Of a stretch of DNA of 51,900 nt, positions 1 through 5,061 are shown in pieces. A model generated the notes under the pieces. It was not told the DNA's origin, did not search any database, and saw only the letters and a program-made list of their open reading frames with translations. The translations under genes and the position numbers were made by a program. Source of the stretch: Dehalococcoidia bacterium (GTDB lineage Bacteria; Chloroflexota; Dehalococcoidia; GIF9; UBA5629). Location of the stretch: assembly GCA_011170325.1 (NCBI GenBank), contig DUEX01000005.1, positions 1-51,900 on the forward strand, written 5' to 3'. Numbering within the stretch: position 1 is the first letter of the stretch; each line of letters begins with the position of its first letter.

Positions 1-1052
1 TCTGGTTTGCCAACGCTGATGCGTAGGCAGTCATTTAGCTCGGGAGTATCAAAGTAACGGACGAATATGCCTTTTCTCTGTAATCTTTGATGGATTGTCT
101 TTGCTTTGCCGTTAAGCACTGAGCAGAGGATAAAGTTAGCTTGGGATGGATAGGATTTTAGCCAGTCTAGCTCGCTGAGCTTAATTAAGAGCCGTTCTCG
201 TTCATCGACTATCGCTTTGATTACGCTACGAAGGTAGTCAATGTCTTTCAGCGATTCTAATACTGCTACTTGGGCAGCGGTATTTACGTTATATGGCTGC
301 TTTATTTTCATTAGATATTCAGCAATATTAATAGGGAAGATACCATAGCCAATTCTCAATCCAGCCAGGCCAGCCCACTTGCTGAAAGTGCGTAGGACTA
401 TTAAATTCGAGTAACCAGGAACTAGAGGAGCCACAGTTGTCCCGCTAAATTCGGAGTAAGCTTCGTCTATGACTACTATAGCGCCGGTATCTAGCAATTC
501 CAAAACATCAGATTCTGGAGTGAGATTGCCTGAGGGATTGTTAGGCGAAGCGATAAAAATAACCTTTGTTCGTTTATCTAAAGCCTTCTTTATGGCAGCA
601 ATATCAATAGAGAAATCTTGTCTCCTAAGTATATTGACTATCTTGCCGCCGCAGACATCAGTACTAAAGGGATACATACCGAAGGTCGGCGGACAGTTAG
701 TCACTTTATCCTCAGGTTCGAGAAATAGCCGCAGGACAAGGTCGATGAGTTCATCACTCCCACTGCCAGCTATGATATACTCCGAACTCAAGCCGACATA
801 TTCTTCCAGTACCTTCCTCAGCTCTCGCTGTTCTGGGTCAGGGTAGAGATGATAATAGGCATAATTGGCTAGAGCCCGCTTTACCTTGGATGAGCAACCA
901 TAAGGGTTCTCATTGCCATCAAGCTTGATCACCTTTTCTGCGGGAATCTCAATGCGCTGGCTCAATACATCGGTTGGCTCAATAGGGGCATAGGTCTTCA
1001 TGTCTTTAAGTTTGGGTCTTACTAATTGTTCGATGTTTTCGGGTGAAATCAT
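1..1052 (-). CDS. hisC: Histidinol-phosphate aminotransferase (3' end cut by window edge)
   Basis: PLP-dependent aminotransferase converting imidazole-acetol phosphate to histidinol phosphate, cytoplasmic, histidine synthesis. About 350 codons are visible with no stop, so only the last few residues should be missing. Reading the minus strand, the N-terminal part has the family motif LDGNENPYG (substrate and fold region), and further on TFSKWAGLAGLRIGYG, whose lysine is the expected PLP-binding residue. The ATG at 1052 overlaps the hisD stop in an ATGA arrangement, so translation is probably coupled. It is the fourth visible gene of the operon hisZ-hisG-hisD-hisC and continues leftward out of the window. 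Confidence 0.95.
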   Translation of the reverse strand, partial: MISPENIEQLVRPKLKDMKTYAPIEPTDVLSQRIEIPAEKVIKLDGNENPYGCSSKVKRALANYAYYHLYPDPEQRELRKVLEEYVGLSSEYIIAGSGSDELIDLVLRLFLEPEDKVTNCPPTFGMYPFSTDVCGGKIVNILRRQDFSIDIAAIKKALDKRTKVIFIASPNNPSGNLTPESDVLELLDTGAIVVIDEAYSEFSGTTVAPLVPGYSNLIVLRTFSKWAGLAGLRIGYGIFPINIAEYLMKIKQPYNVNTAAQVAVLESLKDIDYLRSVIKAIVDERERLLIKLSELDWLKSYPSQANFILCSVLNGKAKTIHQRLQRKGIFVRYFDTPELNDCLRISVGKP

Positions 1053-2380
1053 TTGAGCTCTTTCCCTGTTGCCTGTAACCTTATCTTAATTGCTTGGGCA
1101 TGACCTTTAAGTCCTTCAGCCTCGGCCATAGCTATAGCTGCCTGCCACAACTCTCTCCTGTCAGCTTCGTCAAAGGCAACGATATTAGTGACTTTAAGGA
1201 AATCTTCAATGCTAAGAGGGGAACTGAAACGGGCACTGCCTCCTGTAGGTAAAACATGGCTCGGTCCGGCAATATAATCACCCAGGACTACCGGGGAGCT
1301 ATTGCCAACAAAGATACAGCCAGCGTTATGAATCTTCTCAATATAAGTACTGGCATTACGTACCATTAATGACAGATGCTCTGGAGCATAAAGGTTAACC
1401 AAGTCGATGGCTTCATCCAGACTATCGACGAGCACTATCATACCTCCGGAGTTCATAGCTTCAGTAGCAATAGTTTGTCGCTCTAAATTCGCTAACTGGA
1501 TTTTGATTTCACTATCAACATTGCTGGCTAACTTGGAGGAAGTGGTAATCAAAATTGCTGAAGCTAGAGGGTCGTGTTCAGCTTGGGCTATAAGGTCGGC
1601 GGCACAAAAGGAGGCATTAGCGGTGTCATCAGCTACGACTACTATCTCGCTTGGTCCTTGAAGGCCATCGACATCCACTATCCCATAGACCAGTTTCTTA
1701 GCTATAACTACAAAAATGCTGCCGGGACCGCAAATCTTGTCCACTTTTGGCACTGATTCGGTGCCAAAAGCTAAGGCAGCGATGGCTTGAGCTCCGCCTA
1801 TCTTGAAAAGGCGATTGACCTTGGCAATATCAGCTGCCACGAGCGTTGGTGATGGAATTGTACCATCGTCCCGAGGCGGTGTAGCTACGATAATATCTTT
1901 GACTCCAGCTGTTCGGGCTGGGACAGCTGTCATTAGGACTGTGGAGGGATAAGCAGCAGTTCCACCAGGCACATAGATACCCACCCTATCTAAAGGGCGA
2001 AATTGTCGTCCCAAGCCATGGCTAAGAAAGCCAGCTTCAATTCTTTGCTTACAGGTGGAATGAAATTTATCTATTCTGCTTGCGGCTAGCTTTAGTGCTG
2101 ATATCAGGCTTTCGTCTACCTTTTCATAAGCCGCTGAAATTTCACTCCGAGTTACTTCCAGCGAGGTAAGTTCAACCCTATCTAGTTTCTTGGTGTAATT
2201 CAAAAGAGCCTTATCGCCTTGGTCGCGTACTTCGGCGATGATATGTCCAACTGTTTGCTCTGGAGGAAGCTTTTCCTTTCTTATTTTATCTTCCGACTCT
2301 AGCGATGGCACAGAGAATTCAAAGGAGACTCCTCTGGCCAATAACGGTTTTGCTTTACTAAAGCCTTCGATTATTATCAT
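1049..2380 (-). CDS. hisD: Histidinol dehydrogenase
   Basis: NAD- and zinc-dependent enzyme that oxidises L-histidinol to L-histidine, the last two steps of the pathway. The length (443 aa from the chosen start) is normal. Visible family features are the GPSEIVVVAD segment, the AEHDPLASA block, APEHLSLM, which carries the usual catalytic Glu-His pair, and SHVLPTGGSARFSSPLS near the C-terminus. A TTG at 2395 would give five extra residues and overlap hisG. I prefer the ATG at 2380, which lies one base after the hisG TAG stop, has a GAGAG upstream and yields the typical MIIIEGF start. The gene ends in a 4-base overlap with hisC. Confidence 0.95.
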   Translation of the reverse strand: MIIIEGFSKAKPLLARGVSFEFSVPSLESEDKIRKEKLPPEQTVGHIIAEVRDQGDKALLNYTKKLDRVELTSLEVTRSEISAAYEKVDESLISALKLAASRIDKFHSTCKQRIEAGFLSHGLGRQFRPLDRVGIYVPGGTAAYPSTVLMTAVPARTAGVKDIIVATPPRDDGTIPSPTLVAADIAKVNRLFKIGGAQAIAALAFGTESVPKVDKICGPGSIFVVIAKKLVYGIVDVDGLQGPSEIVVVADDTANASFCAADLIAQAEHDPLASAILITTSSKLASNVDSEIKIQLANLERQTIATEAMNSGGMIVLVDSLDEAIDLVNLYAPEHLSLMVRNASTYIEKIHNAGCIFVGNSSPVVLGDYIAGPSHVLPTGGSARFSSPLSIEDFLKVTNIVAFDEADRRELWQAAIAMAEAEGLKGHAQAIKIRLQATGKELK

Positions 2381-2381
2381 A

Positions 2382-3821
2382 CTAGCTACTCTCAACCGTC
2401 TGGCGAAAGATTTCGACCAGAGAAGCTATTTTTTCTCTCTTGGCGGAAGACTTCAAGCTATCTTTGTTGCCGATAAGGCAAGCTGTAGATTGAAAGAGAG
2501 TGTCCATAATTTTGAGATTATGCTTGGCTAAGGTCTTCCCGGTTTGTGTGTTTTCGATAAGCAGGTCAGCATCCTCAGGTAAGAAGGCTTCACTTGCTCC
2601 CCAAGTAGGAATCAATTTACATTGGCCAACATGGTTATCACGAAGATACTTGTCAGCGATATTTATATACTCTGAAGCTACTCTCAGCGGTGACAATCTG
2701 CTAGCTTGTATCAGTTGCTTCAAATCGTCAATATCGGCTACAGGCATATCTTGGCTAACTACCGCCACCACTTTTACTTCACCAAAGCCAAGGTCAACAA
2801 GCTCAGTAGCTGGGCTTGAGGGGAAGCGATAGAGATGGTCAAGAAGCCAGTCTTTGCCGGTTATAGCCAGGTCAAAATTCCCATTGGCTATTTGGAGCGG
2901 CATATCTTGAGGTCTGATTACTTTAGCATCAACCCAGTCCAGATTGAAAGTTGGGCGGCGATTCAGTGTGTCTCCTGAATAACCTTGCAACTGAAGTCCG
3001 GCTTTATGGAGAAATTCCGAGGTTGGTGTCTGCTGATGCCCATCAGGTAAAGCAAGCCAGACTTTTTCCTCACTGAAGCCAGGGTGGGAACCATTGGAGC
3101 TCCCGGCTAATGTTTGTTTACTTTGTGACCATGGCTTGGCTCCCATCTCAAGTCCATGGCTGAGGTAGGCTATAATCTGGCTGACATTCTTGGTTTGCCA
3201 GCTTTCTCGATTAGCAATAAGAAAGGCACTGGTAGAGAACAGAGTCTTTAGCGAGGCCAAATTCTGAGCTCTTAATTCCGATTCATCTCTTGCCCAGAGT
3301 ACGACCAGGTCGGCATTCTCTGGTGGATAGACTTCAGCAGCTCCCCACACTGGGAAAGTTTTGAACTTCCTCAACCTGAGGTTTAGAGCTGAAGCTTCTG
3401 CTAAATTGGGATACTCAGTTACTATGCGCCAGCTATCCTGTCTGGGTGGCAATTCCTGAAGGCTGGATATATCTCCATGCTGGCTAGCTGCCAAATATAG
3501 ATTGCCTTTATCATATCCTAAGTCAGCTGCCTTGACCAAGGCGCTGGCCGGGTATTTAGCTAAAAGCTCTTCAACCCAATCTAAGCTACAGATGCCCAAA
3601 TCATAGTTACCTATAGCTACTTGGATAGGGATATCTTTTTCTTGGAACATCTTAGCTGAAAGATACGGGAGTCTTGTTGACTGGAGGCGATAAGTTCGCG
3701 TTTCTTGAGCATAGTTTTCAAATCCTAAGCTTACCTCAGTTAATAAGTAGGCTGTAGCTGGTAGAAGTCTCCCCTTGGGTAAGGCTAATTTGACATAATC
3801 TATCTGGTGCCTAGTTAACAA
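2382..3821 (-). CDS. hisG: ATP phosphoribosyltransferase, double-length tandem HisG
   Basis: First enzyme of histidine synthesis, joining ATP and PRPP; the short type (about 200-220 aa) needs the HisZ subunit, which is encoded just upstream. This protein has 479 aa and two HisG-like halves, roughly residues 8-225 and 252-477, joined by a Ser/Gly-rich linker (about 228-250). The N-half keeps the ALPKGRL motif (residues 13-19) but has WARDESEL (176-183) where the PRPP loop should be. The C-half has LPDGHQ (258-263) in place of PKGRL but keeps ITGKDW (320-325) and TQTGKTL (425-431), the PRPP-binding loop. The start is a TTG one base after the hisZ stop, with GGAGG upstream. Identification as HisG is sure; how the two halves share catalysis is inference. 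Confidence 0.9.
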   Translation of the reverse strand: MLTRHQIDYVKLALPKGRLLPATAYLLTEVSLGFENYAQETRTYRLQSTRLPYLSAKMFQEKDIPIQVAIGNYDLGICSLDWVEELLAKYPASALVKAADLGYDKGNLYLAASQHGDISSLQELPPRQDSWRIVTEYPNLAEASALNLRLRKFKTFPVWGAAEVYPPENADLVVLWARDESELRAQNLASLKTLFSTSAFLIANRESWQTKNVSQIIAYLSHGLEMGAKPWSQSKQTLAGSSNGSHPGFSEEKVWLALPDGHQQTPTSEFLHKAGLQLQGYSGDTLNRRPTFNLDWVDAKVIRPQDMPLQIANGNFDLAITGKDWLLDHLYRFPSSPATELVDLGFGEVKVVAVVSQDMPVADIDDLKQLIQASRLSPLRVASEYINIADKYLRDNHVGQCKLIPTWGASEAFLPEDADLLIENTQTGKTLAKHNLKIMDTLFQSTACLIGNKDSLKSSAKREKIASLVEIFRQTVESS

Positions 3822-3822
3822 G

Positions 3823-5061
3823 CTATGCTGAGCCTCCTATTATATTTATGACCTCGCCTACTGAAGCTGCATGTCCCTTTTGGTTTCGGGTCTGGTCGAT
3901 AACAATAAAAGGTGATGGCTCCTCCTGAACAGTAACTAGCCAGCGCCAGTTTAGCTGGCGACTGTTGAAGTCTAGCTCAGCCACATAGCCAGCCTCACGG
4001 AGTGACTGGGCTAGCTGAAAGCAAGACTTTATTATATCTAGCATTGTGGTTTCGCCCCTGATTAAGATTCTCTGCTCTGTCTTCTGTCCAGCCTTAGGCT
4101 GGACCAAATTCATAAGCGGGTTAATATAGAGGGCAAGACCACAGGCTGGAGTGTTTTTACCGCCTATGAGTGGGATAAGGTCATTATATCTACCACCGCT
4201 ACCTATCTTGTTTTCCTTAACTGAGAACTGGAAACAGAGTCCAGTGTAGTATTCGAAACCTCGGGTAGATGTAACATCAATCTGGTAATTACAGTCTAGA
4301 GCATCGAGGAGGCTGGTAACCTCGGCGAAATTGTCAAGCTCAGACTTTAAGTCGAGGGAAATCTGAGGCAGAGCTTTTAAATTTTCTAGGAAGCCGCTGG
4401 ATTTTCCCCTCAAATCAAGGAGCAACGATAACAGCCTGTTGGCATCAGAGTTAGCCGACTCTATTCCTGCCAGCACCTGCCAGTTGCCGTCCAGAACCTG
4501 AGTCAGTAGGCTAGCCTCTTCGTCAGGATTTAGCTTCAGCTCTTTGAGCAGAGCCTTTAACATACCAGCATGGGATAGCTGTATTTTGATATTACTGATG
4601 CCTAAACTGTGTAGAATTTCAGCGGCGAGCAGGATTATTTCCACATCTGATGTCGGGTTAGCACTGCCTAGAAGTTCGACCCCACATTGCCACCGTTCTC
4701 TATTCTCCTTACCTGTTTCTTCGAAAGCGAAGACATTATTCACATAAAAAAGCTTGGCTATTTCTTGCTGGGTTAGATTTTCAATATAGAGTCTGGCAAC
4801 AGGTATAGTGCCGTCTGGTCTCAACACCACCCTTTCCCCACTCCAGCCATCCCAGTCAAGAAAAGAATATACTTTACTCAGCATATTCGGAGTAAGTGTC
4901 CCGGCAGCTGTGAATAGGTGAAGATATTCTAGAGTTGGTGTTCTCACTTCTTGGTAACCCCAGCTGAGACAAGAACTCCGAAACGTATCTTCTACGTGAC
5001 GAAAGCGTTCTGTATCTTCGGGAAGCAAATCTCGAGCGCCTTTACATCTTTGACTTGTCAT
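3823..5061 (-). CDS. hisZ: ATP phosphoribosyltransferase regulatory subunit HisZ (HisS-like)
   Basis: Class II aminoacyl-tRNA-synthetase fold protein of 412 aa. Motif 2 type sequence (RPDGTIPVAR) and GFEYYTGLCFQF, SGGRYNDLI and ACGLAL are visible. HisS enzymes normally read GLDYYTG and have a full anticodon-binding domain; the GFEYYTG form together with its place directly before a short-type hisG points to HisZ, which activates HisG and mediates histidine feedback. A C-terminal region of about 90 residues resembling the anticodon-binding fold is still present. First gene of the his operon, with its own promoter at 5089-5117; it is followed by hisG after a single base. A true HisS is the less likely alternative. 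Confidence 0.88.
   Translation of the reverse strand: MTSQRCKGARDLLPEDTERFRHVEDTFRSSCLSWGYQEVRTPTLEYLHLFTAAGTLTPNMLSKVYSFLDWDGWSGERVVLRPDGTIPVARLYIENLTQQEIAKLFYVNNVFAFEETGKENRERWQCGVELLGSANPTSDVEIILLAAEILHSLGISNIKIQLSHAGMLKALLKELKLNPDEEASLLTQVLDGNWQVLAGIESANSDANRLLSLLLDLRGKSSGFLENLKALPQISLDLKSELDNFAEVTSLLDALDCNYQIDVTSTRGFEYYTGLCFQFSVKENKIGSGGRYNDLIPLIGGKNTPACGLALYINPLMNLVQPKAGQKTEQRILIRGETTMLDIIKSCFQLAQSLREAGYVAELDFNSRQLNWRWLVTVQEEPSPFIVIDQTRNQKGHAASVGEVINIIGGSA

Follow-up and report, generated by a model that had tools for sequence, protein, structure and literature searches.

The window, a stretch of 51,900 nucleotides from a Dehalococcoidia bacterium, carries on its minus strand a segment of a histidine operon in the order hisZ, hisG, hisD and the beginning of a hisC-like gene (Table 1). 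ATP phosphoribosyltransferase (ATPPRT), whose catalytic subunit is HisG, is the first enzyme of histidine synthesis. The hisG gene of the window encodes a tandem protein and is the sole HisG detected in its own draft genome, which is 92% complete. The product of the gene directly upstream scored 213 bits, under the HisZ model cut-off of 271.65, and is best read as HisZ because the true HisS (476 bits, cut-off 286.75) is encoded on another contig. A HisZ that is encoded and distinct from HisS is a mark of the short-form ATPPRT, and a HisZ-like neighbor of this kind was found here and in nearly all tandem loci described below. HisF and HisI are encoded elsewhere in the genome and HisA is partial, while a search of the same 92% complete draft did not find HisB. 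The contig breaks within hisC, and the remainder of the his operon probably lies in an assembly gap.

Table 1 Genes, domains and key residues of the tandem hisG locus (residue numbers are those of the tandem protein; PaHisG, HisG of P. arcticus)
Feature	Position	Strand	Remarks
Tandem hisG, 479 aa	2382..3821	minus	TTG start, 1 base past the hisZ stop codon
hisZ, HisRS-like regulatory subunit	3823..5061	minus	directly upstream of tandem hisG
hisD, histidinol dehydrogenase	1049..2395	minus	overlaps the hisG 3' end; Pfam PF00815, E = 5e-158
hisC-like aminotransferase	1..1052	minus	truncated by the contig start; identity read from the translation
N half, residues 1-228, HisG, putatively pseudo-catalytic	3138..3821	minus	TIGR00070 115 bits; structural match Z 22.3
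Linker, about residues 229-252	3066..3137	minus	low model confidence
C half, residues 253-479, putatively catalytic	2385..3065	minus	TIGR00070 124.4 bits; structural match Z 19.2
ALPKGRL, residues 13-19	3765..3785	minus	equivalent of the PaHisG SKGR loop; varies among N halves
R42	3696..3698	minus	matches PaHisG Arg56, which crosses the interface; among 106 N halves, R in 100 and K in 5
WARDESEL, residues 176-183	3273..3296	minus	lost N-half PRPP loop; motif in 1/106 N halves
DGHQ, residues 260-263, in place of KGR-I in the C half	3033..3044	minus	D 105/106, G 106/106, H 106/106, Q 91%
R288-R289, C half	2955..2960	minus	R 84% and 93%; alignment to Arg56 ambiguous
R303, equivalent of PaHisG Arg73 (ATP gamma-phosphate)	2913..2915	minus	106/106 C halves, 21/106 N halves
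ENTQTGKTL, residues 423-431, C-half PRPP loop	2529..2555	minus	105/106 C halves

The sequence-only reading had proposed two HisG copies in one double-length protein, and profile searches bore this out, as the N half (115 bits) and the C half (124.4 bits) each score alone above the NCBIfam TIGR00070 hisG cut-off of 75.75. Pfam reports HisG (PF01634) in two stretches and no other domain. Aligned with each other, the halves share 32% identity across 214 aa (E = 7e-36), far more than chance would give. With 479 aa and two domains, the protein falls outside the short form, in which a HisG chain consists of one domain of about 200-230 aa. It falls equally outside the long form, HisGL, which is marked by a C-terminal regulatory domain, since its second half is a catalytic-type HisG domain. 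The pattern of the PRPP loop, [DE]..[TS]Gx[TS], is present in the protein by virtue of the C half and is missing from the N half. The tandem is very probably the working ATPPRT of these organisms, and the enzyme would be active.

The tandem chain was modeled as a monomer with AlphaFold2 on a 48-sequence alignment; over its full length, the mean pLDDT is 88 and the pTM 0.85. Confidence falls in the linker (pLDDT 63 for residues 231-240 and 60 for residues 241-250), and all other blocks reach at least 74 except the N terminus. The N half (model residues 6-228) matched 2vd3 with a Z of 22.3 and P. arcticus HisG with a Z of 21.7, and the C half (model residues 251-479) matched 4yb6 with a Z of 19.2; the next-best fold other than HisG reached a Z of 10.9. 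These structure comparisons with VIA-align were made chain by chain and speak to the fold of each half, dimer geometry being outside their scope. A pTM of 0.85 far exceeds the value that would result from one placed half, which suggests that the two equal halves are confidently placed relative to each other in the model.

The fusion is not a local oddity but is present across much of one Chloroflexota class, Dehalococcoidia. Matches to the tandem protein were found in 35 of 41 near relatives (own genome included), a few of them partial, and a search of the genome collection returned 32 fusion loci with titles mostly naming Dehalococcoidia or Chloroflexi. By our count, the tandem occurs as a single open frame in about 50 families of the class; other families encode an ordinary single HisG, mostly with a C-terminal extension. 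In a survey of 400 genomes of the phylum, every full-length match (E < 1e-120) belonged to the class itself. None of the sampled other-class genomes gave a tandem; about 250 of them gave only shorter matches, and among those listed each is a single domain that aligns with the C half, the best at E 1.4e-37 over residues 250-474. For conservation and synteny we used a non-redundant set of 106 distinct tandem loci. In 105 of these, HisZ is encoded upstream, the lone exception being at a contig end, which agrees with the partnership with the adjacent HisZ proposed from the sequence; HisD lies downstream in 99, and two more loci stop at contig ends.

Several loci of the class depart from this arrangement. 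Three genomes (G138, G245 and G287; loci L152, L153 and L157) encode an ordinary single HisG in addition to the tandem, of which only the C half was detected in G287, close to a contig end; replacement or dual use of the two HisG forms is possible in these genomes. Many single HisGs (L085-L092, L094 and L159-L174) are extended at the C terminus by about 100-114 aa and are preceded by a weak HisZ/HisS-like match, and those of the class without a HisZ/HisS-like neighbor have an extension of 77-80 aa instead. At one locus (L177:2358-3657), the N-half and C-half HisGs lie in two overlapping frames between hisZ and hisD, with about 46% and 56% identity to their counterparts in the window protein and with the linker nearly absent. 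This is either a real gene fission or an assembly frameshift; unless the assembly is at fault, the locus suggests that the two halves are able to function as separate chains, in a heterodimer-like manner. A 563-aa open reading frame (L179) encodes a tandem HisG interrupted in frame at several points by a repeated SRESRVETPDSRLQTPD-like peptide, which seems to stem from a short DNA repeat that is present in copies and translated. In the chromosome-level metagenome-assembled genome CP070642.1, the tandem hisG is in two pieces (L038 and L063), with the N half and a truncated C half at one site and the other C-half fragment approximately 370 kb away, the break being due to either rearrangement or misassembly.

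To place the two halves, a maximum-likelihood tree was built from 26 halves of each kind together with 20 singles and two references. In this unrooted tree, the N halves form one clade (support 100/100) and the C halves another (100/98), and the singles and references are separated from both (100/95). A one-residue gap and signature residues that singles rarely show are likewise common to the N and C halves. If the root is placed at any point among the diverse singles, the N and C halves come out as sisters, and the fusion arose once. Thus, the halves are each other's nearest relatives, as in gene elongation, a single internal duplication and fusion having given rise to the catalytic subunit. 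A fusion of two distant HisG paralogs is disfavored by the same clustering of the halves apart from singles and references. Both halves are under purifying selection, with a median dN/dS across 106 pairs of 0.149 for the N half and 0.098 for the C half; these values are rough, as many dS exceed 1. The N halves are the more divergent, with a median identity of 0.44 against 0.54 among the C halves.

We compared functional residues in 106 tandems and 43 single HisGs of the class, aligning each half separately onto the single-HisG alignment so that the halves did not influence each other, and numbering residues as in P. arcticus HisG (PaHisG). In that enzyme, Arg32 is the arginine of the SKGR motif and Arg56 that of SRKL (PMC9734150). 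Arg56 extends from its own subunit over the interface of the dimer to the PRPP pyrophosphate in the partner, and the R56A substitution costs 42-fold; R32A costs 25-fold without HisZ and less than 4-fold with it (PMC9734150). Arg32 would act in cis, since only residue 56 is attributed to the adjacent subunit (PMC9734150). A third arginine, Arg73, touches the gamma-phosphate of ATP (PMC10795190).

The motifs named in the sequence-only reading were all correctly placed (ALPKGRL at residues 13-19, WARDESEL at 176-183, LPDGHQ at 258-263 and TQTGKTL at 425-431), with ITGKDW at 320-325. The missing PRPP loop of the N half, one of its observations, proved to be general, as did the retention of the loop by the C half. 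In PaHisG numbering, the position of D176 is acidic in 1 of 106 N halves, 105 of 106 C halves and all 43 singles; G181 is kept in 15, 105 and 43, respectively, and the position of T183 is Thr or Ser in 6, 105 and 43. The Arg73 position shows the same division, being Arg or Lys in 21 of 106 N halves, in every C half and in 43 of 43 singles. The interface-crossing arginine follows the opposite pattern. At the Arg56 position, Arg is as frequent in N halves (100/106) as in singles (41/43; P = 1), and the surrounding R/K-x-[YLF] motif is found in 103 of 106 N halves and 41 of 43 singles against 11 of 106 C halves. When the C halves are placed separately, 28 of 106 have Arg in the Arg56 column; because R288-R289 lies near this position and aligns to it in some C halves, whether the C half has lost the trans arginine depends on the alignment, and the R288-R289 pair might replace Arg56. 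Taken together, the N half appears to have lost the residues for its own use and kept the one that it can lend, and the C half mostly shows the converse.

The PKGRL/LPDGHQ contrast, from which complementary decay of the two halves had been proposed, carries less weight. The PKGRL of the N half is variable, with the arginine in 59 and the lysine in 85 of 106 sequences and with PAGD, PTGD and other variants in distant families. The C halves have neither the lysine nor the arginine of KGR, and the aspartate, glycine and histidine that occupy the site are invariant or nearly so; D-G-H is a fixed alternative, not decay. Variability of these residues in ordinary single-copy HisG had been named as an observation that would count against the proposal, and it is seen in part, the KGR arginine being present in just 5 of the 43 singles of the class. 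Of complementary decay, the loss of the N-half PRPP loop therefore stands, while the invariance of DGH and the purifying selection on both halves argue against the rest. The strong signal is the reciprocal pattern across the halves. The N half also has near-invariant residues of its own, namely Y37, Q67, Y73, C78, W82, E85, R149, Y165 and P167.

On this evidence, one copy appears to be catalytic and the other, lacking a substrate site, appears to lend it a key arginine. We consider it somewhat probable (about 0.6) that the tandem protein is a covalent pseudodimer with a single active site in the C half, to which the pseudoenzyme N half supplies R42, and that two such chains join a HisZ tetramer. 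The two halves of one chain would most likely pack like the canonical HisG dimer. The cleft of the C half would then be the only catalytic site, its intact loop binding PRPP and R303 binding ATP. R42 would reach in from the N half and stabilize the pyrophosphate leaving group, possibly helped by the invariant H262, which, as a guess, does some of the work of Arg32. The N half, presumably unable to bind PRPP in the usual way, would serve as a pseudoenzyme scaffold. HisZ would bind as it does in short-form enzymes generally, for a complex of HisZ4 and two tandem chains with two sites instead of four. The pseudodimer of the sequence-only reading is thus retained with one surviving site, which is probable, and hence with an altered HisG:HisZ chain stoichiometry; its other option, a composite site, sits poorly with the varying PKGRL. 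A more far-reaching version, which we regard as doubtful, is an obligate class-wide pseudodimer whose dead half donates the arginine finger and also has a ligand-binding or HisZ-sensing role of its own, so that allosteric activation and histidine inhibition would pass through a fixed asymmetric HisG pair, not a symmetric dimer.

Other arrangements have to be weighed against the pseudodimer with a C-half site. The active sites could form between C halves of different chains, with the N halves pairing together or only binding HisZ. R288-R289, conserved at 84% and 93%, could provide the trans arginine for such an arrangement, and the model, being a monomer, is silent on other chains; but pairing of this kind leaves unexplained why the N halves retain Arg56 at the level of single HisGs (100/106 vs 41/43), and the pTM of 0.85 for one chain points to intrachain packing, so that we find it unlikely. 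Slightly less credible still is an N half that acts as a regulatory domain, its cleft, strongly conserved despite the missing PRPP loop, binding a nucleotide, PR-ATP or another effector. The residues nearly invariant in the N half and its dN/dS of 0.149 do argue for a function beyond that of a mere linker, although structural roles and contact with HisZ account for the conservation equally well.

The composite site, in which PKGRL of the N half faces the PRPP loop of the C half across one active site and DGHQ is a decayed remnant, fits the window protein as it stands and draws on the lysine kept in 85 of 106 N halves. It is nevertheless improbable, as distant N halves carry PAGD, PTGD or similar while the C-half DGH is invariant, Arg occupies that position in only 5 of 43 ordinary singles, and known HisG has both motifs in the cleft of the same subunit, by implication of PMC9734150. 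That the locus is a decaying gene or an assembly artefact would be in keeping with genomes that are largely metagenome assemblies and with the relative whose hisG is broken in two places (L038 and L063). Decay, pseudogene and artefact alike are refuted by the low dN/dS of both halves and by 106 distinct conserved open frames in many genera at a constant operon position, and we give this explanation almost no credence.

Compared with the known short-form HisGS-HisZ enzymes (Psychrobacter arcticus 5M8H/6FU2, Acinetobacter baumannii 8OY0, Lactococcus lactis 1Z7M and Thermotoga maritima 1USY), the HisG fold matches both tandem halves with Z of 16.5-22.3. The tandem likewise has no HisG C-terminal regulatory domain reported by Pfam, adjoins a HisZ, and in its C half keeps the PRPP loop and Arg73. 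It differs in having two HisG copies per chain, one of them without the PRPP loop and Arg73, and in the DGH that replaces KGR in the catalytic copy. In contrast to HisG4:HisZ4, the chains would be expected at HisG2:HisZ4, with two active sites per HisZ tetramer. The long-form HisGL of Mycobacterium tuberculosis, Escherichia coli and Campylobacter jejuni has the catalytic domain family in common with the tandem; however, HisGL carries a C-terminal regulatory domain and needs no HisZ, whereas the tandem has a second catalytic-type HisG domain and a HisZ. HisZ is itself a HisRS-like pseudoenzyme, a dead paralog kept as a complex partner much as the N half would be, but the dead paralog of the tandem is a HisG and is fused to the catalytic subunit.

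Gene elongation is known from hisA and hisF, which arose by tandem duplication and fusion and retain internal similarity; the same report saw no evidence of internal repeats in the remaining his enzymes (PMC7284861). The elongation of hisA/hisF is universal and gave a symmetric barrel, while that of hisG is found in one class of our sample and would have given an asymmetric pseudodimer. Our literature search, which covered few subscription papers, found no paper on a duplicated HisG, so an earlier description may exist.

ATPPRT is a textbook allosteric enzyme, and the HisG arginine that crosses the interface is thought to carry the activation signal from HisZ. The fusion would let single-site mutants hit one active site only, which a symmetric homodimer cannot do, and such mutants could test the idea that the interface arginine carries this signal. 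With the tandem, hisG would join the his genes known for elongation, and the usual assumption that each HisZ tetramer goes with four catalytic sites would be altered for a large bacterial class.
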